A program made the position numbers and the translations under genes. A stretch of 64,000 bases of DNA from Thermococcus celericrescens (lineage in GTDB: Archaea > Methanobacteriota_B > Thermococci > Thermococcales > Thermococcaceae). Below are positions 39,530 to 62,674 of this stretch, piece by piece. Numbering within the stretch: the stretch's first letter is position 1; each line of letters starts with the position of its first letter. The stretch is from contig NZ_LLYW01000013.1 in NCBI RefSeq assembly GCF_001484195.1, forward strand, positions 1 through 64,000. The letters are read 5' to 3'. The notes beneath the pieces were generated by a model. The model saw only the letters and a list, made by a program, of their open reading frames with translations, had not been told where the DNA came from and made no database searches.

Positions 39530-39767
39530 GGCGGACTTCTGGAGTTGGGTCGCTTCGGAGAAGCGCAAGCTGGATGTTGCCTTAGAGCAGCCCGTGGAAG
39601 TGCCGACCCTGCTTGAGTACGTCGAGCGCGAGCTCCAGATTGCCAGGGACACGGCGTTCTCCCTCTCTGCTCGCGGCGAGAAGGAGAACGCGGCCTACTG
39701 GTCTGGCTACGCGGATGCATTGGAGGACCTGCTGAAGAGGATTGAAAGAAGGGAGGTGAGGGCATGA
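39522..39767 (+). CDS. Small helical protein, 81 aa
   Basis: Helical and charged (LLEYVERELQIARDTAFSL, AAYWSGYADALEDLLKRI). Overlaps the previous gene by 8 bp and the next by 4 bp. No family. Confidence 0.58.
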   Translation: MSEADFWSWVASEKRKLDVALEQPVEVPTLLEYVERELQIARDTAFSLSARGEKENAAYWSGYADALEDLLKRIERREVRA

Positions 39768-39952
39768 GTGAGTACTCATTCACCTTTGTGAAGATAGATG
39801 GGGAATGGATGGATGAGGACGATGCGATAGAGGAGTATGGCATGAGCTACGTTGACATGGTTGAGGACTCCTTCGAGCTCAAGGTCGAGGCCGAGAACTG
39901 GAAGGACGCTGAGGAGAAGATCCGCATCGCTGCGGAGGCGCTGAGGAGGTGA
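39764..39952 (+). CDS. Small acidic protein, 62 aa
   Basis: Acidic: KIDGEWMDEDDAIEEYG, then FELKVEAENWKDAEEKIR; ATG in TGAGTGAG overlap. Strand-helix pattern. No family. Confidence 0.57.
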   Translation: MSEYSFTFVKIDGEWMDEDDAIEEYGMSYVDMVEDSFELKVEAENWKDAEEKIRIAAEALRR

Positions 39953-39956
39953 GGGC

Positions 39957-40133
39957 ATGAAAAAGAGATGGTTTGTTTTGACGACGTACACGCCGGCAGG
40001 AAACATTGCGGAGTTGACGGAGTTTGACAACGTCTTGAAGGCAACGGACTATGCACTCGAAAACAAGGGCGTCATCATCTCTGAGAAGAACATTGACGAC
40101 ATCATCAAACTGTTAGAGGAGGTGAGGGCATGA
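39957..40133 (+). CDS. Small hypothetical protein, 58 aa
   Basis: ATG 39957 has GAGGAGGTGAGGG upstream and the TGA overlaps the next ATG. KKRWFVLTTYTPAG then ELTEFDNVLKATDYALEN: strand, helix, strand; resembles the previous small alpha/beta proteins. Function unknown. Confidence 0.57.
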   Translation: MKKRWFVLTTYTPAGNIAELTEFDNVLKATDYALENKGVIISEKNIDDIIKLLEEVRA

Positions 40134-40315
40134 GCGTAATAGTCCAGCTCTGGAAGAAGGGGCATGAGGGAGAGCCATATTCTCTGATAGGCACGAGAAG
40201 AGTGGAAAGTCCTGAGGAGTTGAGGTACCTCGAGGAGCACTATGATGTCGAGTGGATTGGCATCGCAGACGACCAGGTCGAAAATTCTTCGACCAGGACG
40301 GGGGGCCGCTCATGA
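40130..40315 (+). CDS. Small hypothetical protein, 61 aa
   Basis: SVIVQLWKKGHEGEPY, then SPEELRYLEEHYDVEWIGI, alpha/beta, ending in a Ser/Thr/Arg tail. GAGGAGGTGAGGGC precedes the ATG. Overlaps next ATG by 4 bp. Confidence 0.57.
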   Translation: MSVIVQLWKKGHEGEPYSLIGTRRVESPEELRYLEEHYDVEWIGIADDQVENSSTRTGGRS

Positions 40316-40679
40316 TTCTCCGTCAGGAATTCTCCCCTCTCACCGCCCACCTACTCCTCGAGCACCCCGAGGCTAGCTGGACTTCGACGGCTGGTTCGAC
40401 TACTACATGCTCGAGGTTCGCCCCGGCAGGGGCCTGCACCACATCTACCTCACGCCGTGGGCGCGCTCGTGGAAGCTCAGCATGGAGTGCGAGGATCCGG
40501 CGAACTGCAGCGACGTGCTCAGCATTCGCGGGGACGTGGAGTTGCACTACCTGCGGCGCCCGGCCGACCCGTATGTTCCTGGCCCTGAGGAGATGTGGAA
40601 TATGGTCCGGGAGGAGGTTGGCCTTCCTCCTGTCGCGTTCCCCTCGAGCCGGACGCACGTCATCACGTGGGCGCCTTGA
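40312..40679 (+). pseudogene. Small plasmid gene with apparent single-base frameshift
   Basis: ATG 40312 overlaps the previous TGA and reads ILRQEFSPLTAHLLLEHPEA; from about 40375 coding sense continues one frame back as LDFDGWFDYYMLEVRPGRG to WAP at 40679. One missing base near GCTAGCTGGAC (about 40370-40382) would join them into a protein of about 122 residues. The shorter ATG 40407 ORF (90 residues) is the alternative. Function unknown. Confidence 0.55.
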
Positions 40680-40725
40680 GGGCGAACTGGACCTGGAAGG
40701 TGACCTGGCACCGGGGGGTGAGAGT

Positions 40726-40896
40726 ATGAGCTTCCAGACGGCTCTGGAACTCTACTCTGAAAGGGAGCGGCAGGAGCGCAGAAAAATCCTCGCGGCGGCG
40801 CAGGGCTTGAAGAAGCGCGTTCAGGCGTTTCAGAGAACCTACCGCAAGGACATCATGCGGGAAGTCATGGAGGTCCTCCTTGGGGGTGACGAGTGA
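40726..40896 (+). CDS. Small helical basic protein, 56 aa
   Basis: ATG 40726 with GGGGGGTGAG upstream. LELYSERERQERRKILAAA and KKRVQAFQRTYRKD make a basic helix pair, possibly nucleic-acid binding. It abuts the methylase gene. Confidence 0.55.
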   Translation: MSFQTALELYSERERQERRKILAAAQGLKKRVQAFQRTYRKDIMREVMEVLLGGDE

Positions 40897-41486
40897 TGGT
40901 TGCGGCTCTCTATCGTCTCCACCCCCAACAGACCTCGCTGAGAGATGCACTGCGGGCGGCGGAGCTGGCAGGCTTGGACGGACAGGTTGTGCTGGACCCC
41001 TTTGCCGGCACTGGCACGCTCGTCTATGCCGCTGCCCGGGCCGGTGCAAGGTTTGTTGTCGGCTCGGATATAGAGGATTGGAGTGAGTACCTTCGCCCGC
41101 AACTCTCAGAAGTTCAGAATTTCGCGCTGTATTGGCGCGTTGATGCAATGCATGCTGTCAAACGCTTTGAGCATGATGTCCTCTTCACGGACCCGCCGAA
41201 CCCGGCCCGCGTCGATGGGTCCGCACCGATTTCACTCGTGAGGGACTTCGGCATCAGCGGCTCTCAGTTGAAGAGTATGTTCAGCTTCAACGAGCGCAAT
41301 CTCATGGGTAGGGAGTGGGTCACAGTTACTTATGTAGTGAGGCTCATTCGCTATGAGCTTGAGCAAGGAAGGCGAGTCGTTGTTCATGCTTTCAGGGATT
41401 CTGGCAGGGATTTCGACTGGAAGAAGATTCTACGTAGGCACTTTCACGTGAGGACGATCTACGACGATTATGTGGAGGTGGTCTGA
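40896..41486 (+). CDS. DNA methyltransferase-like protein
   Basis: 196 residues. Motif I VLDPFAGTGTLVYAA and motif IV-like VLFTDPPNPARVD, in the order of amino-methyltransferases (N6-adenine or N4-cytosine type; DPPN rather than DPPY). The N-terminal LYRLHPQQTSLRDALRAA is like the start of archaeal TRM11/DNA-methylase relatives. ATG overlaps the upstream TGA (TGATG). The target-recognition domain seems minimal. It is directly followed by a nuclease-like gene. Confidence 0.72.
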   Translation: MVAALYRLHPQQTSLRDALRAAELAGLDGQVVLDPFAGTGTLVYAAARAGARFVVGSDIEDWSEYLRPQLSEVQNFALYWRVDAMHAVKRFEHDVLFTDPPNPARVDGSAPISLVRDFGISGSQLKSMFSFNERNLMGREWVTVTYVVRLIRYELEQGRRVVVHAFRDSGRDFDWKKILRRHFHVRTIYDDYVEVV

Positions 41487-42013
41487 TGGCTGCAGCTCGG
41501 GCCGAGATGGTCAGGCTTTCCGCCGACGCCGGAAAGCCCATTTACAAACCGTTCTTTGATTATATGCGCCGCTCTCTCCTCGACATGGAGAACAGGTACC
41601 TCTTCAGTGACTTGATCGAGTACCTGTTCCCTGGTGGGTTTGCCCTCTATGATGTGGATTCCATAGCTTTTGACAAGGAGTCGAGAGAGCCTGTTGCAGC
41701 CTTCGAGTTGAAGCGGAAGAGCTGGCGGGTTGCTCAGCGTGCATGGGAGAATGGCATGATTGAAGTGAACGGCTACCAGTTCCTCAGGCTAAAGAGGCTC
41801 TCAAGGCGCTTCAGCGTGCCTTTGTTTTACTTCATTTGGGCCGGTGAGAAGTTTGCAGTGTTCAAAGTTGACGATGTTTGGGCTGACTTGGAGCGGAAGT
41901 ACGAGGGGACCTCGGCGGAGGACTTGTACGCTGTGATACCGCTTGAGAGCGTCCAGGTGGCTGAGGACTTTACCGAGCTGAGGAGGATAATGGAGGGCGT
42001 CTTGGGGAGGTGA
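41486..42013 (+). CDS. PD-(D/E)XK nuclease-like protein
   Basis: 175 residues. YDVDSIAFDKESREPVAAFELKRKS has the D-x(13-16)-E-x-K pattern (about D58, E75, K77) of PD-(D/E)XK nucleases, followed by NGYQFLRLKRLSRRFSVPLFYFIW with the family's downstream helix and strand. The gene overlaps the methylase TGA, so the two are translated together. It could be the cutting half of a small restriction-modification pair or a DNA-repair nuclease; the sequence does not decide. Confidence 0.65.
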   Translation: MAAARAEMVRLSADAGKPIYKPFFDYMRRSLLDMENRYLFSDLIEYLFPGGFALYDVDSIAFDKESREPVAAFELKRKSWRVAQRAWENGMIEVNGYQFLRLKRLSRRFSVPLFYFIWAGEKFAVFKVDDVWADLERKYEGTSAEDLYAVIPLESVQVAEDFTELRRIMEGVLGR

Positions 42014-48673: not shown

Positions 48674-48798
48674 GGGGGTAAATTGGAAAGAACGGCTAAA
48701 AAAGTAGCGGCACCCTCCGTAGAGCGGGCAAAGCTTTCCTCCGACCCCCGTTTCAAAAGGCCTTTAAGGTCATGGCGCGTTTCTCTTTTGGTGGTGAT

Positions 48799-50256
48799 AT
48801 GAGGGCGTACGTTACGGCTGTAGGAACCTCCCCAGAGGCCGTTTTTAACCCACTCTGGTGCCTTGCCGAGTGCCATTCCTGGGTCCCGGATGAGGTTTAC
48901 CTGCTCTGGAATGATAATGTCGCGGGGGAGCTCGGGGAAGTTTATGAGTTGATCAAACGGCTCTCCACTGCCTACGGCGCGGATATAAAGGTAATCGCCG
49001 ACGAGTCATTGAAGTTCGACGAGGCCGATGCCGTTGAGTTCAGGGAGAAGGTCGGGAGCTTGGTTGAGGCGCTGAAGGGGAAAGGCTATGATGTTGTGGT
49101 GGACATAACCCCCGGCAGGAAGTTCATGAGTGCCCTGCTCCTGGGTGCGGCGATGGCAAAGAACGCCGACGACGTCACGTACCTCCACCTGCGGGAGTGG
49201 ACAAAGTACGTCGGAAGGCTTCTCTTTGAGGTTCCGATGGTAAAGCAGAGGCTCTTTACGGGACGCGAGCTGGCGGGCGTTAATGGAACGCTGGATAAGG
49301 CGAGAAGAAAGAAAGAATCCCCAGGGGTTTTCAAGATTGATAGAGAGCACATAATGGCGGTTCTCAATTCCCTCCATATCGATGGTGTAACGCGCTTCCC
49401 GCTCAAGGTACGAAACACGATCATTGGAAGCGTGACCCTCGGGGAAACTGCAAGTGTAAGGATCCCGGATTACATAGACCTCGACGACCAGCTCCACGGC
49501 GGGCACACGATGGTCAAGGAGGCCCTCATAGCGGGAGGGATGGCCAAGTTAAAAAACTGGGAGGAACTTGTCTCCATGGTGAAGCGGCTGAAGGGGGACG
49601 GAAGACCGCTGTACATCGGCTTCGACACCAACGCCCTCTACTTCCGCCTTCCCTCAAAGCTCCTCGGCGAAGGAAGGTTCTACTCCGGCGGAAGCCTGAT
49701 TTTTGATTTCGTGTACTCCGATGAGGTAGCCCTGGAGGTCGGAAGGGCGGTAAACGACAAGCTTCCCTACGACAGGGCCCTTGGTGTGTATTCTAATCAG
49801 CCGAAGCCCAGGGCAAGACTGGCATCCCTTGGAAGAGTAGAGCTCGAGAGGCTCAGGGAACGCGGGGCGGAGAGGGCAGACTCCAGGGAAAACTTCCACG
49901 GGGACACCAAGATAGCCCTCGACTACAAGGTCTTCGCCGAGGAAAAGGATTCAAACGTTCTGGTGATTACCCTTGACGACAGGGCGTACGCAGAGATGGA
50001 GAGCCTGAAGGGAAGCGGACTGATACCGTTTAAACTTGAGTGGAGCTTTTCCTTCGGAGAGACCTTTGAGGGGACTTGGGAGGAGCTGAGGGACACCCTC
50101 TACGCCCTGGCAGCAACCCTCGGCGAGCTGAACCTTCACGGCTACAAGCTCCGTGGCCTGTGGCACGGCAAAAGCTCGACCGATTGGAAAAATGAAACTG
50201 TGGAGCTGAGGGGCTTCGAGTACGGAAGGCTCTTTAGGGTTCTTGGGGCCCTTTGA
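48799..50256 (+). CDS. CARF domain protein with C-terminal PIN-like nuclease domain
   Basis: 485 residues. N-terminal CARF domain: AVGTSPEAVFNPLWCL, VYLLWNDN, and the ligand-site motif DITPGRKFMSAL (about 102-113). A wHTH-like linker follows (IMAVLNSLHIDGVTRFP). The C-terminal part reads YIGFDTNALYFRL (Asp about 276), GDTKIALDY (Asp 369/375) and VLVITLDDRAYAEME (Asp 393-394): the spaced acidic residues of a PIN RNase. CARF domains bind cyclic oligoadenylate made by Cas10, so this is probably a ligand-activated RNase effector of the nearby type III system. ATG 48799 follows GGTGGTGAT; an earlier ATG 48772 is less likely. Confidence 0.82.
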   Translation: MRAYVTAVGTSPEAVFNPLWCLAECHSWVPDEVYLLWNDNVAGELGEVYELIKRLSTAYGADIKVIADESLKFDEADAVEFREKVGSLVEALKGKGYDVVVDITPGRKFMSALLLGAAMAKNADDVTYLHLREWTKYVGRLLFEVPMVKQRLFTGRELAGVNGTLDKARRKKESPGVFKIDREHIMAVLNSLHIDGVTRFPLKVRNTIIGSVTLGETASVRIPDYIDLDDQLHGGHTMVKEALIAGGMAKLKNWEELVSMVKRLKGDGRPLYIGFDTNALYFRLPSKLLGEGRFYSGGSLIFDFVYSDEVALEVGRAVNDKLPYDRALGVYSNQPKPRARLASLGRVELERLRERGAERADSRENFHGDTKIALDYKVFAEEKDSNVLVITLDDRAYAEMESLKGSGLIPFKLEWSFSFGETFEGTWEELRDTLYALAATLGELNLHGYKLRGLWHGKSSTDWKNETVELRGFEYGRLFRVLGAL

Positions 50257-50282: not shown

Positions 50283-51199
50283 GGTTTCAGGACTCTCCGG
50301 TCCATTCTTTCCATTCTCCGAAAGAAACGAAACGGAGAACTCCCCTCATGGCTGAAACCAAGACCACCAAACTACCTCAAAGAGGGCAGGAAGAGAAAAC
50401 AGTTAATCGTCCTCAGGAACGATCAATACAGAATTGAAGGCAACAAGTTGATCCTCAAAGGCCTTGGAAAATTTAAACGCCTTGAAATCCAATTCAAGGG
50501 GAGAATTCATCTCAAGGGAAAGCAGGAGCGGTTAGAAATCCAGTATGATGACGTTAAACGCAAGAGGTATGCTCACATCTCCAGTTCAAAAGTTGGGGGA
50601 AGACTGAAAGGAGAAGAGGGGATTGAACTCCCAAGACAGCCGAAAGGAAACCTCTCGGCAGGAATTGATTTGGGTATTAACAACTTGATAGCGGTGTATG
50701 TGGAAAGTGGCTAAAGCTTTCTCGTGAGTAGCCGACCTTTAAAGAGCATGGCCTTCTACTGGCAGAAGAGAATAGCCGAATACCAATCAAAACTTAACAA
50801 ATCAAGAGCAAAGAAAAGCAGGAAACTAAAAAGAATGCACGAAAAGGCGAAACTCCAAGCTAAACACTACATCAATACTGCCCTGAGACAAACCGTCAGG
50901 AAACTCCATGAGTTGGGAGTTTCAAAAATCGTCGTCGGTTATCCTAAGGGAACTGCCAGAAACCCTGAGAAAGGCAGGAAGCAGAATTTTCTCCTCTCCC
51001 ACGTCTGGCGGTTCTCCATAAAGGGGCTCGCTTTGTTCGTGGTCTTTATTCGTGTCCCGCAACGGGGCTTATCTCCAACGCTGATTTGGCTGGAGCCTTC
51101 AACATTTTGAAAAAAAGCCGTGAAAACAATAACCCCGGATTTGGGTGGCTTGTTCGCCCAAAGGAAGGCCCGGCCAGAGGGGCTGAAAGCCCGCTTTGA
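50283..51199 (+). pseudogene. IS605-family TnpB pseudogene
   Basis: N-terminally truncated TnpB with stops and frame changes. Frame pieces read ILSILRKKRNGELPSWLKP, then NDQYRIEGNKLILKGLGK, then AGIDLGINNLIAVYVESG (RuvC-I Asp) followed by a stop at 50712. The C-terminal zinc-finger/RuvC-III area is frameshifted: RVPQRGL, then LISNADLAGAFNILKK (RuvC-III Asp) and a Pro/Arg-rich tail ending 51199. TnpB is the RNA-guided nuclease of IS605 elements, ancestor of Cas12; this copy cannot be active. The left end of the IS is missing. Confidence 0.8.
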
Positions 51200-51324: not shown

Positions 51325-51353
51325 GTTTCCAAACCCGCAGGTAGTTCTGAAAC
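51325..51353 (-). CRISPR. Solitary CRISPR repeat next to a leader
   Basis: 29 bp, minus-strand sense GTTTCAGAACTACCTGCGG then GTTTGGAAAC; two changes from the intact repeat at 58358-58386. Only one repeat remains. A 33-bp stretch (51292-51324), possibly a partial spacer, separates it from the IS605 right end. The leader follows on the other side. Confidence 0.7.
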
Positions 51354-51505
51354 GGTTAACTTTTCGCCCCGTTGAGCATTTAATACCCTGCAGAACTCTT
51401 ATATAAGCATTACGCTCTCCTGAGCGCCCGGAAAGTAAGGCCTCTCGGGCTCCAGCCATAACTACCCCCGCGCCGAAACAATTAACTGACGCTATCTCGG
51501 CACTG
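51354..51505 (-). promoter_or_regulatory. CRISPR leader 1
   Basis: About 150 bp adjoining the solitary repeat are colinear with 58387-58545 (shared GGTTAACTTTT, then CTTATATAAGCATTACGC, CCATAACTA, CGAAACAATTAAC). The TATATAAG block on the minus strand is the probable array promoter. The remaining 51506-51739 shows only loose similarity to the other leader's flank and no gene. Confidence 0.65.
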
Positions 51506-51739: not shown

Positions 51740-52045
51740 CTACTCCAGAAGCTCATCAACGTTTAGGGGCACCACATCGCCGACCTTCACGTTGCCGCCA
51801 TGTACTTCAACCACAACCGCACCGCCGAGCCTCGGGTCATAAGTGGCGACCCAAAGTGTTGGGTGGTACCAGTGAACGAGGAAGGCGTAGAGCCATATGG
51901 GGCCACGTCCGCTGAGCACCACGCCCCGGCTTCCCTTTACCGTGGGGGGCTTCAGGGACTTAAGTTCCTCCGGACTCACGTGCCCGTCCGTCTCAAAGTG
52001 AACAAGGGTGAAATCCTCAAGGTCAACAGTCTTAAAGCTCAGCAT
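51740..52045 (-). CDS. csx3: Csx3 (Crn3-type cyclic oligoadenylate ring nuclease)
   Basis: 101 residues: FTLVHFETDGHVSPEEL, GSRGVVLSGRGPIWLYAFL and VATYDPRLGGAVVVE, the Csx3 pattern (conserved GRGP-IW, His/Asp-rich). Csx3 proteins cleave cyclic tetra-adenylate and so switch off CARF effectors. ATG 52045 has GGGAGGTGT upstream; a longer start at 52129 is rejected. It lies 80 bp after csm5 on the same strand and closes the csm operon. Confidence 0.85.
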   Translation of the reverse strand: MLSFKTVDLEDFTLVHFETDGHVSPEELKSLKPPTVKGSRGVVLSGRGPIWLYAFLVHWYHPTLWVATYDPRLGGAVVVEVHGGNVKVGDVVPLNVDELLE

Positions 52046-52125
52046 CCCCCACACCTCCCGATTCATCCCTTCCGCGGATGGTTCCGGCTTGATATACCCC
52101 AGAATAAAAATTTTGGGGAACCGGG

Positions 52126-53241
52126 TCACTCCCGGAGGAGCACCCAGCCCATGGGCTTTCTGTTGGCGACCCTCCTCGTCCGTGGAAAGTCACTTGAGAG
52201 CCTTTTGGTCACAGGGTTCCTGCCAAGTTTGAGCTTCCTTCTGATGTATTCAAACATATGGCTGTCAAAGAAAAGGGCTCCCAGGGTCATTGAGTACCAG
52301 CCGGAACCCCAGCCGAGCCTAAGCCTGTGTCCGTTCAGCCCTTTCAGCCCCCTGTAAAAGCGTTCGATGTCCCCGCTGAAGCTATCGTACTTTTTCAACT
52401 GGTCTCTCCTCAGCTCGAAGGATATTATCTCCCTGCTGAAGCTATCAACGGCACGCCATATCAGGTTCTCGAAGTCCTCCTTGCCGGACATCTCCTCGGC
52501 CAGCAGACCGTTGAAGGTTCCCGTCTTCAACCCCCTCTCTAGGAGCTCCCCATCAATCCTAAGCTCCATCTCAACGCTCAGCCCCTCGATACCCTCGACG
52601 TACTGCGGTATTCTTCCGGCCCCCACGGTCGCGACCTCGTAAACGGTCAGGTGTTTTGGGCCGAACGGTTTTCCGTCCCTGATTACGAGGGCTCTCATTG
52701 GGTCGTGCTTCGGCTCATATCTCCTGTCATTCCCCCTCCGAGCGTAGCCGAAGACGAGCGTTTCCAGTCTCTCGCCCACCCACTTGGGGGATACCCTCCT
52801 CATCTCCAGCAGGCCATTCAGGAAAGCGTCCAGCTCCCTGGCCCTGTCCTTGATCACCTCATAAAACACCGCCGTTCTTATGGGGCCCTTGAGGGACGAG
52901 CCTGGCACGTAAGGCTTTCCAGAGGTCTTTATGAACTCCCAGATTTTCATACTCTTGGGTCTGATGCTTCCGTTTACGGGAAGGATGTATCTGGACACGT
53001 CACCGGGGGCTATGCCGTATCTTTTGAGGTATCTCTCCCAGATGTAGTGGCTTCCTCCACTCTCAACGTTCCGGAGTTCGTCCAGTATCTCCTCCATGTC
53101 CGCCCCGAGTTCAATGAGTCTCTCCAGGAGCCCCTCAGTGTCGAGTATATGTATGGTCCCGTTTTTTCCGGGCAGTATATCCACCACGGTGAGTGTATCG
53201 CCGCTGCCTACGTGCACGGGGGAGATGGCTTCCAGTATCAT
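52126..53241 (-). CDS. csm5: Csm5, type III-A RAMP protein
   Basis: 371 residues with RAMP features: EAISPVHVGSGDTL, YVPGSSLKGPIRTAVF and the terminal Gly-rich GHRLRLGWGSGWYS. Caps the 3' end of crRNA in the Csm complex. ATG overlaps the csm4 stop. Confidence 0.9.
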   Translation of the reverse strand: MILEAISPVHVGSGDTLTVVDILPGKNGTIHILDTEGLLERLIELGADMEEILDELRNVESGGSHYIWERYLKRYGIAPGDVSRYILPVNGSIRPKSMKIWEFIKTSGKPYVPGSSLKGPIRTAVFYEVIKDRARELDAFLNGLLEMRRVSPKWVGERLETLVFGYARRGNDRRYEPKHDPMRALVIRDGKPFGPKHLTVYEVATVGAGRIPQYVEGIEGLSVEMELRIDGELLERGLKTGTFNGLLAEEMSGKEDFENLIWRAVDSFSREIISFELRRDQLKKYDSFSGDIERFYRGLKGLNGHRLRLGWGSGWYSMTLGALFFDSHMFEYIRRKLKLGRNPVTKRLSSDFPRTRRVANRKPMGWVLLRE

Positions 53242-54167
53242 TTCAGCATCACCCTAACTGGGAACGCCTTGCCATAGACGTGAACCTTGTGACCTATCTC
53301 CTTGGAAAAGTTGCCGTAGTCGTCGAGGTCAATAACAGCCCCCGCATCCTTGGATGAAACGATACTTCCCTCCCTGGCGAATAGCATTGTTGGTTTCCTT
53401 CTCGGTGTCCCCGTTTTCGTGTTCACCCAGCCTGAACGTTTCACCGGTTCCCAGTACACCAGCTCATCCCTGCTCCGCGGGAGGGTCAGTGAAAGGGTAA
53501 CGAAGGAATCCCCATTAGACTCCCTTATCTCCACGTCTTTGACCTCGACGTTAAAGAGCCCGAGTCCCCATGTCCTCTTTCCTCCGAGCCCCTCGTCACC
53601 GAGGAATCTAACCGCGGGAAGCACGTATTTCCTGAATACAGACCCGTCCCCGTCGTAGAGGAAGTACAGACCGGCACTTTCCTCAAAGAAGACCTGCGTG
53701 AGATAGTATATCGAGGAGTTTGAGGTGACCCTGTCGAGAGCGACTTTGGGAACGTCCGCTACTTTAAAGGGCATTCTTTCGGGGAGCAGTTCGATTATTC
53801 TCTCGGGATCAATGTTCCTATTTATCACATCCTCAAAGACCTTCTTTGGGAGGAACTTTGACTTCTTGAACTTTTTAGAGACCCTATAGTTCTCCCGGCT
53901 CCCCATGGCGGTCTTGGCCACGAGGGAATCCGCATGGAGAGGCTTGGGAAGGTAGTACTCTCTGCCTCTGAATGGATAAAGGGATGAAAACCTCGCCCTG
54001 CCTGATGATACCGCATCAATCAGCCCGTCCAGTGGAATCCCCATTGCAGACAGCGCGTTGCCCATCGCACCGAAGAGCGTATCTGAGTGGACGGGAACGT
54101 CAACGCTGTCCGTCGAGCCCATGCCGACGTGGAGCGGGGACCTGAAGTGTAGCTTCACAGCCTTCAT
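53238..54167 (-). CDS. csm4: Csm4, type III-A RAMP protein
   Basis: 309 residues: KLHFRSPLHVGMGS at the start, VPVHSDTLFGAMGNALSA, ARFSSLYPFRGREYYLPKP and the Gly-rich FLGDEGLGGKRTWGLGLF. Csm4 binds Cas10 and the crRNA 5' tag. csm3 ends 7 bp upstream. Confidence 0.9.
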   Translation of the reverse strand: MKAVKLHFRSPLHVGMGSTDSVDVPVHSDTLFGAMGNALSAMGIPLDGLIDAVSSGRARFSSLYPFRGREYYLPKPLHADSLVAKTAMGSRENYRVSKKFKKSKFLPKKVFEDVINRNIDPERIIELLPERMPFKVADVPKVALDRVTSNSSIYYLTQVFFEESAGLYFLYDGDGSVFRKYVLPAVRFLGDEGLGGKRTWGLGLFNVEVKDVEIRESNGDSFVTLSLTLPRSRDELVYWEPVKRSGWVNTKTGTPRRKPTMLFAREGSIVSSKDAGAVIDLDDYGNFSKEIGHKVHVYGKAFPVRVMLK

Positions 54168-54174
54168 GCCGCGG

Positions 54175-55026
54175 TTACCCTCCTTCTATCTTGAATACCT
54201 CATCGAAGGATTCCCTCACCCCCTCGACTTTGGTGGGCATCTTAAGAAGAACCCGCTCGCCTTCCTCTCCGGTGTAATATCCCAGGGGCCGGAATGTTAT
54301 GCTCTCGATTGTGAACTCCACCTTTCCGTAGCCCCTCGAACCGGAACCACCGAGATAGCTGTCTTCCAGGAGCTTCATGGCGGTGAGAAGGTTCCGGAGG
54401 TCGTCTTCCCACTGGGTGAGATCTTCAACGTTGTATATTATCTCAAAGTGGAATTCGGCGCCCGCGACGACTCTTTCGTTGGTTCTGGGGTTCGCCGCCG
54501 AGGTAACCCTGTCTATCGCCACTTCGGTCTTGGCCTCCGTTATCTGCTCTCCATCCCTCCATCTGTTCTCCCACTCCTTGGTCAGCTCAGCGTCCCTTAC
54601 GATGAGTCCGGACGGAAAGTTGGAGTTGCCGCTCGCCCCAAAAAGCCTGCACACCGGACAGTTGATGGCAGTGTTGTGATCGTTGCAGACGTGAATCACA
54701 ACCTTGCCAACAGCCTTGTTGAAGAACCTGCGACATTTCTTGTCCTTTATCTCCTTGACTGTACAATAGCCTGGCTCATAGGGAAGGTTTATCTCCCCCT
54801 TTTCGAGACGGGTGTTGGTCAGTATCTCGAGGAGGCCCCTCATCTTGCCTTTCAGGGATGAGCCAGGAATGTATGGCAGACCGGTTACGGGGTTCTTTAT
54901 GACGGGGTTGTCGATTCCCCCTATCTCCGAAACCTCTTTCTGGGCGCCTATGTGCAGACCGGTGACGGCCTTTATCTTGCCCGTCAGGATAACCTTACCG
55001 TATATTCGCCGGTTCATCCCGCTCAT
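54175..55026 (-). CDS. csm3: Csm3, backbone RAMP and target-RNA nuclease
   Basis: 283 residues: AVTGLHIGAQKE, GGIDNPVIKNP (catalytic Asp that cuts target RNA at 6-nt intervals), YIPGSSLKGKMRGLLE, CPVCRLFGASG (zinc-type Cys pair) and GSGSRGYGKVEF (G-loop). The intact active-site Asp suggests RNA cutting could still work. ATG overlaps csm2 stop. Confidence 0.93.
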   Translation of the reverse strand: MSGMNRRIYGKVILTGKIKAVTGLHIGAQKEVSEIGGIDNPVIKNPVTGLPYIPGSSLKGKMRGLLEILTNTRLEKGEINLPYEPGYCTVKEIKDKKCRRFFNKAVGKVVIHVCNDHNTAINCPVCRLFGASGNSNFPSGLIVRDAELTKEWENRWRDGEQITEAKTEVAIDRVTSAANPRTNERVVAGAEFHFEIIYNVEDLTQWEDDLRNLLTAMKLLEDSYLGGSGSRGYGKVEFTIESITFRPLGYYTGEEGERVLLKMPTKVEGVRESFDEVFKIEGG

Positions 55027-55601
55027 TTATCACTCCCTCCAAAGAAGCGATGATAGGCTATAACCGCCTGGACAAAATCGTAAAATATCTTGTACAATTT
55101 TCTGTCGGGGTTTTCCATGAGTTCCTTCAGGAGGGGATCTAGAACACGGTGTATCGCCTCAAGAGGCTCCCTTTCCTTCTGTTTCTCCGCTTTGCCAACG
55201 GCGTAAGCCATAAGAAACCTCATCCTGGCGAGTTTTGCCTTTGTGTCCTCCTCCTTGGCGGAGTAGTTTTTAAAGTCCAGCTCGATGTTCCTAGCAAGCT
55301 CGAGAACCTTCCGTACCTGGTTGGTCTTAAGGTTCAGAGCCACCAGATAGGCGGAAACCCAGATCGCCCATTCGAGTCTCTTCTCGGGAGTCTGACCGAA
55401 GAATCCCTTTCCGTTTTCCAGTTCCCTCAGGGCCGACTCAAACCTTTCTTTCAGCTCCTTTTTGATCGCCCCTGAGCAGTTCCCGAGGGCTTCCTTTAGG
55501 AGGAATACATTGGGCTCCCCGCGGGAGAACGAGCCCCTGTATTTCGAACAATCCTCCCTGGGTCTCCCCCCAGGGCTCCCACTACCTCTGCCCCAGTTCA
55601 T
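55023..55601 (-). CDS. csm2: Csm2, small subunit
   Basis: 192 residues, helical: KRLEWAIWVSAYLVALNLK, then NQVRKVLELARN and MRFLMAYAVGKAEKQKE fit Csm2. The Gly/Arg-rich N-terminus (about 25 residues) is probably disordered. Forms the inner filament against target RNA. Confidence 0.85.
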   Translation of the reverse strand: MNWGRGSGSPGGRPREDCSKYRGSFSRGEPNVFLLKEALGNCSGAIKKELKERFESALRELENGKGFFGQTPEKRLEWAIWVSAYLVALNLKTNQVRKVLELARNIELDFKNYSAKEEDTKAKLARMRFLMAYAVGKAEKQKEREPLEAIHRVLDPLLKELMENPDRKLYKIFYDFVQAVIAYHRFFGGSDK

Positions 55602-55608
55602 TACGGTT

Positions 55609-57982
55609 TCACCTCCTAACGGCCATCAGAAGGATTTTGAGTATTCCATCAATCCAAAATATCTCCTGCGGTTCCCCTGCGCGGTATTTCCGGACGTCCA
55701 GGGCTACAATGTCCTTCATGCTTTCGTCCAGCCCCGCGCGGGAGAGGTGGTACGCTGCGAGGTAGCTCCATGAGACGCCGAGCGGATCCATTGAATAAAG
55801 CTCCCTGAACTCAAGGAGCTTCCACAGGGCGGACTTGGGGACTTCTTTGCCGTTGAGGGCTAGTTTCCCTGCCCCAATGTGGAAGGGTTTTCCGTACTTC
55901 CTCCAGAGTTCCGAGTAAAGGCCCCACGGGTACGATACAGTGAATGTCCCGTCTTCCGGGATGCTCCTTCCCATCAGGCATATTCTGTCCTTGCCCTCAT
56001 CTTTGGCCGTTTCGAGCCGCTCCTCCGTCACAATCGCCATTCTTTCAACCTGGTAGCTGTGAGGGAATGTCCCTATCCCTGCGGAGAGTGTTACGTTGGG
56101 GTTCCTCCCCGTGTATTCCCTCAAGAGTTCCCTTATCCTGAAGGCAAGGTTGAAAATCTCGTTCCACGCACCGAGGATGAACAGGTCGTCTCCCCCCGCG
56201 TAAACCACAACTATGTTTGCTTTTGTCCCGTGGTTTCCGGGATGCTTTTCGGCTCCGAGTTCCCTTGCCGTTGGAAGTTCCGGCAGATTCCGGCCGATGG
56301 AGACCTCCCCCCGGATTATTGAGTTGAGGTATGCCTTAAAGAAGTAGTCGAGGAGTCTCGACAGGTTTGCCACAAGCGCGGGGTTTGTCTTGGGCAGGCC
56401 AGTCCCAAAGATGAGGCCGAGGTCGTCAACGTCCGCCTTGAGAACCGCTATCCTGCCGGCACCTACGGAGTTTTCGGCGAGCTTTTCGAGGTCCATTATG
56501 TTTCCGTCCTCAGTCAGCTTGGCGTAGTCTGCCACCACATAGGGGATTGGGACGTATCCAGCCGGAACCCCCCGAGGATCCAGCGTGTTTCTCAGGAGAA
56601 CCTCGGAGCCCTCCGGGAAGCTCACGGACTCGAGCAGTTTGGCGCTGTCCAGCCAGTGGAACCTTGAGAAAGGAAGCTCAACGGATTTCCTGTGATCCTC
56701 TCTGAAGTCCTTTCCCGTCCTGACGAAGACCTCGGTCTTTGGAAGCTTTCCGCCGAGATGCCAGAGTTCGTAGCACGTCCTGCAGAGATGGAGCACCGGC
56801 TCGCCCGTTTCGGGGTCGCTTATGACAAACCTCTCGAACTCGGAGCGGGTGATCTGTTTTCTGCACACATCGCACTCCTCGGATTTGCGATAGCCCTCCG
56901 TATCAACGAACCGGTCGATGGCATCGAGGAAGCGGCGCATCTTCCGTTTTCCGAGGAGCTCCTTGAGTTCCCCCCAAAGGGACCCCCTTTGAAGTCCCTG
57001 ATTTCCTCGGGGGAGACATCCAGCCAGTCGATGGCCAGGTACAGTGAACCGTCAAACTTCCCAAGCAAAAAAGTCTCAAGCTCTTTCCGGATTTCCTTCA
57101 GAGTCTCCCTTGCCCGTTTGGTGTTGGGGGCTATTATCGTGAATGAACCGCCTCCGTTATACAGAACGCTCGCCCTCGTGAGTCCGAGCCGCTTGATGAT
57201 TTCGAGGACCACGTCCCAGCCAAGAAGATCGAGGTACACGGACCTGGCGCGCAGATGCTTCAGCGCACCCTTGGATGTTATACTGAAGATGAACCTCTGT
57301 ATCCCGGAGAGGTCACCTTCCACGAGGAGAAACGGTCTTTCGGAGGTTGCTCCACTTTCCTCCTCGCGCCAGTACAGATAAAGCGCAGTTGCGAGCGCGG
57401 CCACCATGCGGGCGCTGTCGTAGAAGGACACCGCCGAACCGGAACAGGCCGGGAGAAACGTGGTGTATGTTTCGAGTATCGCCATGACTGCGCTGGGTTC
57501 GGGAGTGAAATCTCTCCCCCTGAGCTCCTCCGCGAGTTCATCAATCCGCTCCCTGTACTCCTCCGCATTGACTTCCACCTTCTCTTCGGGGAGCGGGAGT
57601 CCTTTCCGGAAGTCGAGCCTCTGGGGGCGGTAATACATGTTCCTGGGCTGCCCTTTCCGATGTCTATAATGCTGAAAACCGAGAGCAGTGCTCCCAGGCC
57701 GCTTTTTCCATCACAGTCGCCGGCGAGCTTTGAGGCCAGCATAACAGCCTTTCCGAACCTGCGAAGCTCCTCGTCGGTGGAAACACCTTCGAATTTTTCC
57801 CAGCCATCGAGCAGAAGGGCGAGGGGTGCGATTCTTCTGTACTCCTCCCGACCGGAGCTTTCGGCGATGGAATTCAGGAATTCATAGCCAAGCCTCCCAG
57901 GGGGACCGTTTTGGAGGGGCGCGAGAAGCCGGCCGATGGAGTGGAGAAGCGCACCCGTAACGAGAACCTCGATGTCCCTCAC
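55609..57982 (-). pseudogene. cas10: Csm1/Cas10, frameshifted
   Basis: GTG 57982 has GGAGGTGAT upstream. Frame 1 gives the HD-like domain (GALLHSIGRL: the catalytic His-Asp is His-Ser). Sense then switches near 57646-57654 (GGCAGCCCAGGAAC) and again at a G6 run near 56970-56975 (TTTGGGGGGAACTC), each by one base. Fixing both gives about 790 residues: HD-like, palm 1 (LVEGDLSGIQRFIFS), zinc site (CDVC...CRTC), palm 2 with GGDD (VYAGGDDLFIL) and a small C-terminal domain. The GGDD cyclase that makes cyclic oligoadenylate looks intact. As written the gene cannot make full Cas10; sequencing error in homopolymers is possible. Confidence 0.85.
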
Positions 57983-58108
57983 CGAATCACCTCCACGGTA
58001 CCGGGGATGAGCTGGAACCTGCAGACCAATGCCCCGGAACATATTGGTGCGCACTACCGGTGTTTCTGGTTACCCGATGCATCGTAGTGGGCACTTTGTA
58101 ACTCTGTC

Positions 58109-58127: not shown

Positions 58128-58216
58128 TTCCACACAGTTGGGAGATTATCCATCAATGTCGTCCCTCGTCGCGGGGTCAAGCTTAATCCCCGCAGGTAAT
58201 TGAAGCGAAAAGAGCG

Positions 58217-58386
58217 ATTTCCCAAACCTCAGGTAGTCCTGAAATCTGACAGCAAGAAGAGCACTATGAGGCCAGTGACAGAGCCTCCGTTTCCAAACCA
58301 GTGGGTGGTTCTGAAACTTGGAGGAGTAGGGAGCTGGGTTGCATTAGACCTCGCTCTGTTTCCAAACCCGTAGGTAGTCCTGAAAC
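58217..58386 (-). CRISPR. Vestigial CRISPR array, three repeats and two spacers
   Basis: 29-bp repeats at 58358-58386 (intact sequence, leader-proximal), 58289-58317 (four differences) and 58217-58245 (heavily degenerate, indel-shifted). Spacers are 40 bp (58318-58357) and 43 bp (58246-58288). Degeneracy increases away from the leader, as expected for the oldest end. Sense strand of repeat: GTTTCAGGACTACCTACGG then GTTTGGAAAC. Confidence 0.85.
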
Positions 58387-58545
58387 GGTTAACTTTTTCA
58401 CTCCTTTTAAGCGTTTAATACTCAGCAGAACCCTTATATAAGCATTACGCCCCTCAGAGCGCCCAAAAAATAAGGCATCTCCTGCCCCTACCATAACTAA
58501 CCCCACTCCGAAACAATTAACCGACACCATCCCCAGCGCCGGAAG
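58387..58545 (-). promoter_or_regulatory. CRISPR leader 2
   Basis: Colinear with the leader at 51354. CCTTATATAAGCATTACGC contains the TATA element. 58546-58780 has no gene and only scattered similarity to the flank of leader 1 (a CCGTCCAATT block is shared). Confidence 0.65.
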
Positions 58546-58875
58546 GCAGAAAAAGACCACAAAAACGCCCGCCGTATGAACGGACGGTGCAGGCCAAGCT
58601 TGAGTAGTGGCAGAGCCATCTTTCTTGAAATCACTCATGAATATGGTATGGAAACCCCCACTCGCCCCACGGGGACACTGGACTGCTCCGTTCATGGGCG
58701 ATTCCAAACCCGTCCAATTTGGCTGTTTTTAACGGAATAACACATGGAGCGCCGCCGTTAAGCTGATAAACCTGGGAGACCCCTTACCCCAGTGCCCGGA
58801 ATTCCCATGGAGCCCCCACACCTTCTCGAAAGGTTTTTATCCCTTTCAACCCAAGTGGGTTGCTGGTGTTTCAGG

Positions 58876-59622
58876 ATGAGGATAAAGCTCGACCTGGAGC
58901 CCGATGAAAGCTTTCCCTTCTATGCCGTTGGAAAACACGCAGTTCAGGCGATGATATACACCCACCTCTCGGGGACGGAATACGAGTCGCTCCACGACAG
59001 GAGAGGATTCAAGTTCTTCACTTTCTCGGACATCTTCCCCAGCGGCCGTTTTCAGCCCGGAGAAAGGAAGAGCCTGATAATCAGCTCCCCGGACGGGGGC
59101 TTCATAGAGACCCTCTACGAGAGGCTCCTGCCGAACGAGAAGATTTACCTCGGAAGGCACGCGCTGAACGTCGTCTCAATCAAGAAGTTCAGCCTGAGGC
59201 CTGGGAAGGCCTTCATAACCGGCTCTCCAGTGGTGCTTTCGGCTCCCGGTCGCGGGCGCTTCTTCACCTTCCACCACCACAGGAGCCTGCCCTACTTCAT
59301 CGAAAAGCTCACCGAGAACGCCATCAAGAAATACGAGGCATTCACGGGCGAAAGCCTCACCCTCGACTCCCCCATCTTCACCGCCATGGTTCCGAGGCTC
59401 AGGAAAAAGGGCTGGTTCGACATCTACGTGAGGGTGAACATCAGGGGGCGCTACTTCGACGTCCCCGGCACGACTTGGGAGTACCTGGAGGCCCCGATAA
59501 ACCTCGACAACCGGGAGTTCTACTCATTTCTGATGGACGCGGGCATAGGTGAACTTAACTCCCTCGGTTTCGGTTTCATAAATCCCCTCAGGGGGAGAAG
59601 AGTCACGGGTGGGGCCAGTTGA
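58876..59622 (+). CDS. cas6: Cas6 pre-crRNA endoribonuclease
   Basis: 248 residues: RIKLDLEPDESFPFYAVGKHAVQAMIY, with His in the first ferredoxin-like fold, and the C-terminal Gly-rich loop GELNSLGFGFINPL that binds the repeat. It processes array transcripts. ATG 58876; a longer start at 58792 has no support. Divergent from the csm operon, with a TTTTTATCCC promoter-like box at about 58836-58845. Confidence 0.92.
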   Translation: MRIKLDLEPDESFPFYAVGKHAVQAMIYTHLSGTEYESLHDRRGFKFFTFSDIFPSGRFQPGERKSLIISSPDGGFIETLYERLLPNEKIYLGRHALNVVSIKKFSLRPGKAFITGSPVVLSAPGRGRFFTFHHHRSLPYFIEKLTENAIKKYEAFTGESLTLDSPIFTAMVPRLRKKGWFDIYVRVNIRGRYFDVPGTTWEYLEAPINLDNREFYSFLMDAGIGELNSLGFGFINPLRGRRVTGGAS

Positions 59623-59703: not shown

Positions 59704-60837
59704 CTAAAGCCGCCGGTTCAGGGAACGCGCCATCTCGTTGAGCAGGTCTTTTAGTGAGTAAACGTCCAGATCAACGCGGTAGAGGCTCTCCTCCGGCGCA
59801 ACGTCCTGAATCTCCTGCTTCGTGTACTCGGCCTGGCAGTCGCCCTTTATAGCCTCAAGGGCCATCGCGACGCTCACGAGCGTTTTTCCGCCGGTTACGT
59901 CGAAGGTAACTTCACCGCTCTCTTTCTTCAGTATCTCCCCGAGGGCTCCCTTTATAGCCTCCCTGCACTCCTCCACGTCGTCGAAGTTTCCGGCGGGAAC
60001 CATCACGAACTCGATAACACCCTCCCCGCTACCGATGCTCTCTCTCCTGCCGTCCGGCCACCTGATGAGAACCGGCCTTCCCGTGCACTCCGAGAGCTTC
60101 AGGAAGAAGGCCCTCATCTTGGCCTCGAAGGCGGAACCCTGCGCATCGAATCCCCTCTCACTCAGGTATTCCCGAGCGTACTGGGTCGTTCTGTCATCTT
60201 TCCAGTTGAGGATAGATTCTGAGACGAGGAGGAAGACCCTCTCAAGCCTCGGGAGATGGTAGCTAATCGCCTGAAATAGGGGAACTATATTCTGTCTCTT
60301 CTGTCTCTTTGGTCCGTTGTTGAGCTCCGCGCTGTTCCTCCTGAGCATATCGCAGTCGGCATGGAGAACCCTGTCCGCGTCCCAGCTTGGAATGCTCAGA
60401 GCGGTGACGAGGTACCGCGTTTTCCTGAGTTCCCGCCTTTCACTCCTCTTCTGCTTTGGCTCCACCAGCCAGTATGTCAGCAGGGCTATGGAGGATGTGT
60501 AGAGTATCGCCCCAATGGTCCCGAGGGGTTCACCGTTCGATACGCTGTCGGGAAGCCACGCCGTCAGGACGCCCGCGAGCAGTATGAACAGCAAAACTCC
60601 CAGGAGGCTCTCAACCTGACCGAGCACTAGTCCTATAAACTGCACAGACAGGAAGGCCTCCAGTCCCACTTCTGACTTCTTCCGGGCTCGGTGATACATG
60701 AACAGAGAGATAACAAAGACTATCACCGACGCTATCAAAAACGGAGGGTATCTCACTATGTTGGAGGGCACATAGAACGCAGCGAGGGGAATCAACAGGA
60801 GCACCATCCAGAGGAGGTCTCTTCTATTGAGCCGCAT
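59704..60837 (-). CDS. Membrane-anchored CARF protein (four helices + CARF-like domain)
   Basis: 377 residues from ATG 60837. Four hydrophobic helices (LLWMVLLLIPLAAFYV, FLIASVIVFVISLFMY, LLGVLLFILLAGVLTAWL, ILYTSSIALLTYWLV) in the first about 130 residues, a basic linker (KQKRSERRELRKTR), then an alpha/beta domain starting YLVTALSIPSWDADRVLHAD and ending with EVTFDVTGGKTLVSVAMALEA, the ligand-loop pattern of CARF domains. It looks like a cyclic-oligoadenylate-gated membrane effector comparable in logic to Cam1/Csx23. No nuclease motif is seen. A start at 60915 would overlap ABCE1 and is rejected. Confidence 0.72.
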   Translation of the reverse strand: MRLNRRDLLWMVLLLIPLAAFYVPSNIVRYPPFLIASVIVFVISLFMYHRARKKSEVGLEAFLSVQFIGLVLGQVESLLGVLLFILLAGVLTAWLPDSVSNGEPLGTIGAILYTSSIALLTYWLVEPKQKRSERRELRKTRYLVTALSIPSWDADRVLHADCDMLRRNSAELNNGPKRQKRQNIVPLFQAISYHLPRLERVFLLVSESILNWKDDRTTQYAREYLSERGFDAQGSAFEAKMRAFFLKLSECTGRPVLIRWPDGRRESIGSGEGVIEFVMVPAGNFDDVEECREAIKGALGEILKKESGEVTFDVTGGKTLVSVAMALEAIKGDCQAEYTKQEIQDVAPEESLYRVDLDVYSLKDLLNEMARSLNRRL

Positions 60838-60898
60838 GGATTGAGATATCCCGCAACCCTTTAAAACCCTCTCCCTCAGCCTAACCCGGTGGTGAGTG

Positions 60899-62674
60899 AT
60901 GAGGATAGCGGTCATCGATTACGACAGGTGTAACCCCGACAAGTGCGGCAACTTCCTGTGCGAGCGCGTCTGTCCGGTCAATCGAATGGGCGGAGAGGCG
61001 ATAATCATAGACGAGGAGAACTACCGCCCGGTGATCCAGGAGGCGAGCTGTACGGGCTGCGGAATCTGTGTGCATAAGTGTCCCTTCAACGCGATAACCA
61101 TAGTGAACCTCCCGGAGGAGCTTGAGGAGGGCTGCGTCCACCGCTATGGAGTAAACGCCTTCGTCCTCTACAGGCTTCCGGTGGTCAAGGACGGCATGGT
61201 CGTCGGTATCCTCGGACCGAACGGAACCGGTAAGACCACCGCGGTTAAGATACTCGCCGGCCAGCTCCTGCCGAACCTCTGCGGCGACAACGAGGATTGG
61301 GACAACGTCATCAGGGCATTCCGCGGCAACGAGCTCCAGAACTACTTCGAGAAGCTCAAGAACCGGCAGATTAAACCTGTAGTCAAGCCCCAGTACGTGG
61401 ACTTAATCCCCAAGGCGGTTAAGGGCAAGGTTCGGGACCTGCTCAAGAAGGCCGACGAGGTTGGAAAATTCGATGATGTGGTCAGAGAGCTTGAGCTGGA
61501 GAACGTCCTCGACAGGGACATAAAACACCTCTCCGGCGGTGAGCTTCAGCGCGTGGCCATAGCCGCGGCGATACTCAGGGACGCGCACTTCTACTTCTTC
61601 GATGAGCCGTCCAGTTACCTCGACATAAAGCAGAGGCTCAAGGTGGCCAGGATAATCCGCCATCTGGCCGATTCGGGCAAGGCGGTTCTCACCGTTGAGC
61701 ACGACCTGGCGGTTCTGGATTATCTCAGCGATGTCATTCACGTCGTCTACGGTAAGCCCGGCGCCTACGGTATATTCTCCCAGCCGAAGGGCACGCGCAA
61801 TGGAATAAACGAGTTCCTGCGCGGCTACCTGAAGGACGAGAACGTCCGCTTCAGGCCCCAGGAGATAAGGTTCACCAAATCCAGCGAGAGGAAGAGCCAG
61901 GAGGGCGAGATACTGGTTGAGTACCCGAGGCTGGTGAAGGACTACGGCGGCTTCAGGCTCGAGGCCGAGCCCGGAGCGCTCTACATGGGCGAAGTCGTGA
62001 GCATCGTCGGCCCCAACGGAATCGGTAAGACCACCTTCGTGAAGATGCTCGCGGGCGTCGAGAAGCCCACCGAGGGAGAGGTCGATTGGGAGCTGAAGGT
62101 TTCCTACAAGCCGCAGTACATCAAGGTCGACTACGAGGGGACCGTCTATGATCTCCTGAGCAAAATAAACGCGGGGAAGCTCCTCAACAGCTTCTACAAG
62201 ACGGAACTTCTCAATCCGCTCGGAGTTCCGGACCTCTACGACAAGCAGGTGAACGAGCTGTCGGGCGGTGAACTTCAGAGGGTTGCAATAACCGCGGCAC
62301 TCATCCGCGACGCGGACCTGTACCTGCTCGACGAGCCCTCCGCGTACCTCGACGTCGAGCAGAGGTTGGCGGTTTCAAGGGCGATAAGGCACCTGATGGA
62401 GAAGGAGGGCAAGACCGCCCTCGTCGTCGAGCACGACGTTCTCATGATAGACTACATCAGTGACAGACTCATGGTCTTCGAGGGCGAGCCAGGGAAGCAC
62501 GGTAAGGCACTGCCGCCCACCGGGATGCGCGAGGGCATGAACCGCTTCCTCGCGGGGGTCGGCATAACCTTCAGACGCGACCCGGACACGGGCAGGCCCA
62601 GGGCCAACAAGGAGAACAGCGTCAAGGACAGGGAGCAGAAGGAGATAGGCGAGTACTACTACGTCGCCCCGTGA
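60899..62674 (+). CDS. ABCE1/Rli1 ribosome-recycling ATPase
   Basis: 591 residues: two [4Fe-4S] ferredoxin motifs (RCNPDKCGNFLCERVCP; SCTGCGICVHKCP), ABC1 with GPNGTGKTT and LSGGELQRV, a hinge, ABC2 with GPNGIGKTT and LSGGELQRV, and FFDEPSSYLD / LLDEPSAYLD Walker B. Splits 70S ribosomes after termination. ATG 60899 follows GGTGGTGAG; promoter TTTAAAACCC near 60860. Divergent from the CARF membrane gene. Confidence 0.97.
   Translation: MRIAVIDYDRCNPDKCGNFLCERVCPVNRMGGEAIIIDEENYRPVIQEASCTGCGICVHKCPFNAITIVNLPEELEEGCVHRYGVNAFVLYRLPVVKDGMVVGILGPNGTGKTTAVKILAGQLLPNLCGDNEDWDNVIRAFRGNELQNYFEKLKNRQIKPVVKPQYVDLIPKAVKGKVRDLLKKADEVGKFDDVVRELELENVLDRDIKHLSGGELQRVAIAAAILRDAHFYFFDEPSSYLDIKQRLKVARIIRHLADSGKAVLTVEHDLAVLDYLSDVIHVVYGKPGAYGIFSQPKGTRNGINEFLRGYLKDENVRFRPQEIRFTKSSERKSQEGEILVEYPRLVKDYGGFRLEAEPGALYMGEVVSIVGPNGIGKTTFVKMLAGVEKPTEGEVDWELKVSYKPQYIKVDYEGTVYDLLSKINAGKLLNSFYKTELLNPLGVPDLYDKQVNELSGGELQRVAITAALIRDADLYLLDEPSAYLDVEQRLAVSRAIRHLMEKEGKTALVVEHDVLMIDYISDRLMVFEGEPGKHGKALPPTGMREGMNRFLAGVGITFRRDPDTGRPRANKENSVKDREQKEIGEYYYVAP

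Follow-up and report, generated by a model that had tools for sequence, protein, structure and literature searches.

The 64,000-nt stretch of DNA analysed here (the window) encodes, beside a type III CRISPR operon, a protein in which membrane spans are followed by a predicted CARF domain; it belongs to the CARF8--CARF_TM family and is called CARF-TM below. We take it, with a probability of roughly 0.7, to be a membrane effector that serves type III systems of the signalling-only kind and is gated by a cyclic oligoadenylate, probably cA4. In this role it would probably disable the cell membrane when a virus attacks.

The CARF-TM gene lies at 59704–60837 on the minus strand (377 aa; ATG start, TAG stop; identified as an ORF and by the PADLOC profile PDLC01944), exactly where an earlier, sequence-only reading of the window had put it. 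An upstream ATG at 60915 allows a longer reading; ATG 60837 is the likely start, since in the closest homologue (genome G034) a TAA stands two codons ahead of the equivalent position. The membrane and CARF halves of the protein are both under purifying selection. Compared with G034, dN is 0.197 and dS 1.28 over residues 1–130, dN is 0.198 and dS 1.31 over residues 137–377, and for residues 77–98 (22 codons) dN falls to 0.02.

CARF domain and membrane domain

The CARF domain is assigned to residues 137–363 (59749–60429, minus strand), for which the top ranks of a VIA-align comparison are CARF proteins. CARF ligand loops are of the motif type [DNH]xTGG[KT]. In CARF-TM the loop DVTGGKTLVS forms residues 313–322, and its DVTGGK (residues 313–318; 59884–59901, minus strand) conforms to that type; T315 and G317 do not vary in alignment A1, which holds 11 members of the family. 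In an 18-row set TSG replaces TGG in five rows and TMG does so in one.

PADLOC profiles indicate more than a chance motif: CARF, Csx1 and Csm6 profiles match across the 11 members. Thirty PADLOC families match at least one member (E ≤ 0.001) and, among the matches listed (25 of the 30), all are named CARF, Csx1 or Csm6; PDLC01944, PDLC01168, PDLC01941 and PDLC01970 each match all 11. The window protein is matched by PDLC01944 (CARF8--CARF_TM) at E 5e-90, residues 7–375 aligning to positions 5–334 of a 339-position profile. This profile spans the membrane part too, so the order of spans followed by CARF was already present in a public library: CARF-TM belongs to a catalogued PADLOC family and its architecture is not new. 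The CARF8 label is said to originate with Makarova et al. 2020. A membrane-associated CARF protein had been noted as early as 2014 (PMC4012209).

Other libraries gave less. No Pfam family was found at E ≤ 0.05 (six matches at E 0.053–0.94 all fell under the cut-offs), and NCBIfam gave no match to the protein. A phmmer search of the PDB with the whole protein gave none at E ≤ 10. Searching the PDB with the family profile returned seven non-significant matches (E 0.48–1.9), five of them CARF ring nucleases and two unrelated proteins, one of the unrelated ones being the best of the seven.

An AlphaFold model built from a two-row alignment has a mean pLDDT of 54.9, with block means of 73–89 at residues 191–280 and values below 50 in the membrane part and at the C-terminus; around the TGGK loop pLDDT is about 50, so the putative ligand pocket is poorly modelled. 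Foldseek found seven matches at E ≤ 0.001, each to a Csm6 chain. VIA-align with residues 137–363 retrieved Csm6, Can2, Cdn1, Csx1-Crn2, Card1, Csa3 and Cam1, the Cam1 entries at Z 8.2–8.4 (8t65_B: Z 8.4, rmsd 3.3, 134 aligned). Ranks 1–26 are CARF proteins, counting 1xmx (VC1899), which we take to be one. The best Z is 9.5 and the first unrelated row stands at 7.4, a modest margin for any single row, so it is the unbroken series of CARF proteins that carries the fold case. On these comparisons the soluble part is predicted to have the CARF Rossmann-like fold. The CARF-like domain claimed from the sequence thus stands, profile and fold comparison both placing it among CARF proteins, and neither gave a sign that a CARF fold is absent.

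The N-terminal membrane domain covers residues 1–130 (60448–60837, minus strand) and has about four spans (6–24, 27–45, 77–95 and 107–125). It is assigned by hydropathy and charge pattern, and helices are seen in low-confidence structure models (mean pLDDT 53 when the membrane part is modelled alone). A Kyte–Doolittle scan of A1 called exactly four spans in eight of the 11 members. The window protein was given five, the extra one weak (residues 55–73; 1.39), and this segment may be an interfacial or re-entrant helix. One member shows three spans, its start having been set downstream of span 1 for the analysis, and one shows five, of which one is a false call within the CARF domain. Across the eight rows with four spans, zero to two basic residues (K + R) are found in the outer loops (1 and 3) and three to seven in the inner loop (2), which fits a cytoplasmic position of both termini. 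The earlier description of a four-helix membrane protein therefore agrees with hydropathy, which finds about four N-terminal spans and a soluble remainder; the membrane domain, described there as the N-terminal half, is the N-terminal third.

The most conserved part of the membrane domain is residues 62–97 (60547–60654, minus strand), ending in the motif AWLPD in the third span. Ten of the 35 positions at 62–96 do not vary in A1, compared with 25 of the other 342, and every one of the 18 rows in the tree set has [AQ]W[LF]P[DE]. Such invariance appears to exceed what a passive anchor would need, and by conservation the stretch 62–96 with its AWLPD end is the best candidate for a gate.

Locus, spread and link to type III systems

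Between 48.8 and 60.8 kb the gene order is CARF-PIN, an IS605 OrfB remnant, csx3, csm5, csm4, csm3, csm2, cas10, cas6 and CARF-TM, so that cas10, csm2–5, cas6 and csx3 all lie within 12 kb of CARF-TM. Next to it is cas6 (58792–59622, plus strand; TIGR01877, E 7.6e-30). The genes cas10/csm1 (55609–58054), csm2 (55023–55601; TIGR01870, E 1.1e-17), csm3 (54175–55026; TIGR02582, E 1.2e-66), csm4 (53238–54167; TIGR01903, E 1.5e-77), csm5 (52126–53241; TIGR01899, E 2.8e-56) and csx3/crn3, for a ring nuclease (51740–52129; TIGR02579, E 1.1e-32), are all on the minus strand. The CARF-PIN effector gene (48772–50256, plus strand; PADLOC PDLC01973, E 1.4e-208) is co-inherited with CARF-TM. The IS605 OrfB (TnpB-like) remnant is in two pieces at 50448–51110, inside the CRISPR locus.

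A 125-nt leader-like sequence occurs in two copies, 81% identical, within 51325–51496 and 58213–58531. Beside one lies a single CRISPR repeat (51325–51353) and beside the other a mini array of three repeats, one degenerate, at spacings of 72 and 69 (58213–58386); both are placed on the minus strand, the array from its leader-like side. On the far side of CARF-TM and divergent from it is an ABCE1/RLI-like gene (60896–62674, plus strand). The same neighbour flanks CARF-TM in G034, G004, G001, G031, G018, G089 and G073, and this flank may be a fixed insertion site.

A first search covered 61 genomes and found a match in 12, the window's own included. Extending it with PDLC01944 to 115 genomes of the phylum gave 19 matching genomes in two genera, the second of which appears to be Pyrococcus; 18 are counted as carriers and the other, G001, holds a remnant. 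Among the 18, CARF-TM is open in 16, carries one in-frame stop in G023 and has a frame break in G073. In the G073 copy (L056:9500-10813) the frame changes within the membrane domain, and the CARF-PIN nearby is no more than a fragment. The G001 remnant (L017:9867-10256, also L005) comprises the first 132 residues, that is the membrane part, and ends in stops. A pattern scan of genome contigs returned one relative. Two other archaeal phyla held no full-length member, with short, partial matches to the CARF part in 2 of 23 and 10 of 398 genomes, and no relatives were found in viral contigs, plasmids or phages.

Cas10, counted over curated cut-offs (Cmr2 in 19 genomes, Csm1 in 26, both in nine), is present in 36 of the 115 genomes: in all 18 carriers (in G070 as a fragment) and in 18 of the 97 others, among which G001 is counted. 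The association is overstated by its Fisher value of 1.9e-11, the genomes being related. In the same genus as the window, CARF-TM lies within about 13 kb of a cas10 in 14 of 14 carriers; in the second genus the distance is about 18–24 kb in three (G065, G067 and G071), and the contig of G070 is too short to judge. Cas10 is present despite the disrupted CARF-TM in two of the 18 carriers (G023 and G073). The CRISPR link, first claimed from the cas6 and csm neighbours, is thus strong across the phylum. Consistent occurrence away from type III loci was looked for and not seen, the sole copy without a Cas10 over the cut-offs being the decayed remnant of G001.

The subtype varies. III-B is found in twelve of the 14 same-genus carriers; the two others, the window and G018, carry only III-A. 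A tree of 18 rows, from which G023 was left out and to which G073 contributed a piece, divides into two main clades. The window's row (G000) groups with G034, a III-B carrier, in the first, and G018 with the III-B carrier G031 in the second, where the four rows from the second genus also fall; in these four the Cas10 closest to CARF-TM is III-A. An association specific to type III-A was considered and rejected, given the 12 III-B carriers and the III-A-only cases that adjoin III-B carriers. G033 has two CARF-TM genes in tandem (L016:8732-11152), one from each main clade, and their products possibly form a heteromer.

The reading frame of the window's own cas10 is interrupted near 57640 and near 56985, which splits the gene over three frames, and the pathway here may be broken or mis-sequenced. 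One reading, which concerns the window's genome only and is compatible with an effector role of the family, is that the type III arm is dead here, Cas10 being a pseudogene, the arrays shrunken and the intact effector a leftover. We hold this to be a serious possibility, short of probable. In its favour are the two breaks, no second Cas10 having been found in the genome, and the repeats, reduced to one mini array and one lone repeat with no further copy genome-wide at up to two mismatches. Against it, the three Cas10 pieces are otherwise open and retain CxxC pairs and GGDD; the break near 56985 adjoins six consecutive G, and sequencing errors are common at such places in a draft like this one of 73 contigs; and CARF-TM, CARF-PIN and csx3 are all open. 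The breaks were not accepted as proof of a pseudogene, as breaks elsewhere in the window fit error and decay alike. One region at 39527–42010 shows many frame changes and includes a DNA-methylase-like piece at 40893–41483; decay, sequencing errors and overlapping genes are all possible causes.

HD-less Cas10, the CARF-PIN partner and the proposed mechanism

The HD motif of the window's Cas10 reads LLHSIGR, where the HD-bearing Csm1 of relatives reads LLHDIGK; G018 Csm1 reads LLPLGR at the position that HMMER aligns with HDIGK in solved Csm1 chains. The Cmr2 of 11 same-genus carriers begins with an EVAPSKIL-like sequence, against HDPPDK in HD-bearing controls (G065 copy a and G105). These 11 do have an inner HD dipeptide at about 141–183 (in G004 there is also one before its start), which is part of the PDH motif and is not the N-terminal HD, as alignment of G010 Cmr2 with 4w8y indicates. 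The Cmr2 of G089 has an N-terminus without HD, and its GGDD part is on another contig. G065, G067 and G071 each have an HD-less Cmr2 far from CARF-TM, and the Cas10 closest to CARF-TM there is a Csm1 that keeps HD, present in G067 as an open piece of 380 aa that lacks GGDD.

With G070 left out, an HD-less Cas10 is present in 17 of 17 assessable carriers and in 3 of 18 Cas10-bearing non-carriers (G072, G090 and G104, where an HD-less Cmr2 occurs alongside an HD-bearing Csm1); the other 15 have HD-bearing Cas10 only. The Fisher value is 2.9e-7, over counts from related genomes that are not independent. Among the 17, the HD-less Cas10 shows GGDD in 15, and the broken gene of the window has it as well. 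Hoikkala et al. filtered for new effectors by a clear cyclase, no HD and no known effector (PMC11229360, in its available text), and the CARF-TM pattern, matching that filter, is the one expected of an effector.

CARF-PIN is the second companion. Of the 11 same-genus carriers in the 61-genome set, 10 have a long match to CARF-PIN (that of G010 with an internal gap), whereas none of the 26 other same-genus genomes does (Fisher 3e-8). Eight of the 10 were read in the DNA and had no stop within the best span, bar one at the very end in G034. The exception without a long match is G023, whose CARF-TM carries the stop; G001, with the CARF-TM remnant, has no CARF-PIN. A full CARF-PIN is thus missing from the genome or locus of all three disrupted CARF-TM copies (G001, G023 and G073), and the two genes seem to decay together, as in G073. 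Their relative orientation may be convergent, divergent or on the same strand. In the second genus CARF-PIN lies about 6–7 kb from CARF-TM in G065, G067 and G071; for G089 and G070 its presence was judged only within short contigs.

As a gated effector, CARF-TM would act as follows. An HD-less Cas10 would sense viral target RNA and make a cyclic oligoadenylate, most likely cA4, which would bind the cytoplasmic CARF domain, presumably at the interface of a CARF dimer. The movement would be passed to the four-span domain, where a pore would open or the membrane barrier would otherwise be broken; cell growth would stop and virus spread would be prevented. The CARF-PIN nuclease would act in parallel, and Csx3 would remove the ligand. 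Gating of this kind is plausible by analogy with Cam1 (PMC10808066), Cap1 (PMC12642688) and Csx23 (PMC11014256), which are reported to be cA4-activated membrane effectors, with depolarization reported for Cam1 and Cap1 (PMC10808066; PMC12642688). For the ligand, cA4 is the best guess given the csx3 in the operon, Crn3/Csx3 being described as degrading cA4 (PMC12830947), the product profile of P. furiosus Cmr, where cA4 is reported as the most abundant product at about twice cA3 (PMC7192623), and a survey whose available text reports no cA3- or cA6-activated effectors in archaeal loci (PMC11229360). Several observations weigh against the reading: the weak structure model, the split Cas10 of the window, the HD motif kept by the Cas10 closest to CARF-TM in the second genus, the three genomes that have an HD-less Cmr2 but no CARF-TM, and the two carriers in which CARF-TM is disrupted beside a Cas10.

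Two other roles were weighed. CARF-TM could be a membrane-anchored ring nuclease or buffer, whose CARF domain slowly cleaves or sequesters cyclic oligoadenylate and whose spans are a mere anchor. Some CARF domains are reported to cleave their ligand, for example that of T. onnurineus Csm6 (PMC7192623), and the PDB matches of the family profile include the ring nucleases Sso2081 and Sis0455 (E 0.88–1.9, non-significant). We consider this role improbable, as the operon already has a ring nuclease gene in csx3, constraint on the membrane domain equals that on the CARF domain, residues 62–96 are the richest in invariant positions, and the family model that covers the full length is a CARF_TM one. 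It is similarly unlikely that CARF-TM senses cyclic oligoadenylate as a membrane transporter or signal relay, for example to export the ligand or to signal to neighbours, in place of a growth-arresting pore: four spans per subunit, against one in Cam1, and the intercellular signalling speculated for SAVED membrane proteins (PMC9704534) would suit it, whereas no Pfam family matches the protein at E ≤ 0.05 and the characterised membrane effectors of the pathway depolarize or perturb the membrane.

The gated-effector reading has a bolder form, in which CARF-TM represents a new structural class of archaeal channel gated by cyclic oligoadenylate. Each subunit would have four spans and a further helix, re-entrant or interfacial, with AWLPD as the gate; CARF-TM and CARF-PIN would be the two halves of an obligate module standing in for the DNase arm that HD-less Cas10 lacks, and the tandem paralogues of G033 would form a heteromer. 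We offer this combination as speculation, with the odds rather against it.

Comparison with known systems

The PADLOC family CARF8--CARF_TM (PDLC01944) has the same order of spans then CARF as the window protein, and nothing excludes the latter from membership. General searches of the open-licence literature yielded no tested function for the family and no tested four-span CARF protein. Nor did they turn up in print the ties of CARF-TM to HD-less Cas10 and CARF-PIN, or its sharing between III-A and III-B.

Cam1 of Nitrosococcus halophilus, as described in the available text of its report, is like CARF-TM a type III ancillary protein with an N-terminal membrane part and a C-terminal CARF domain; it has 206 aa and one 24-residue span, whereas CARF-TM has 377 aa, about four spans and the AWLPD motif (PMC10808066). 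The sequence-only reading had contrasted the two. Its point on span number is borne out, whereas the order it took to be distinctive, helices first and CARF last, is identical in Cam1 (PMC10808066), and an arrangement new with respect to Cam1 is rejected on the same ground.

Cap1 of Parafilimonas terrae likewise has spans followed by a sensor, of cA4 in its case, and its locus resembles the window's in being type III-A with a Csx3-like ring nuclease (PMC12642688). The accessible description gives it two spans, a divergent CARF-like domain and DUF4579 (PMC12642688), against about four spans in CARF-TM, for which no Pfam match to DUF4579 is listed at E ≤ 1. Csx23 of Vibrio cholerae is reported to be membrane-bound and cA4-activated and shares the type III association of CARF-TM (PMC11014256). 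Its soluble domain is described as a novel non-CARF fold, unlike that of CARF-TM, which is CARF by profile and fold comparison, and its AF2 tetramer has eight membrane helices, two per subunit, against about four in CARF-TM (PMC11014256).

The tie to HD-less Cas10 is close enough to offer a clean test of the hypothesis that signalling-only type III systems depend on paired effectors, a nuclease and a membrane protein. The tested membrane effectors of the CARF type in the literature searched are bacterial proteins only, whereas the CARF-TM family is archaeal and from hyperthermophiles, and its heat-stable proteins would be good material for the structure of a multi-span CARF channel.
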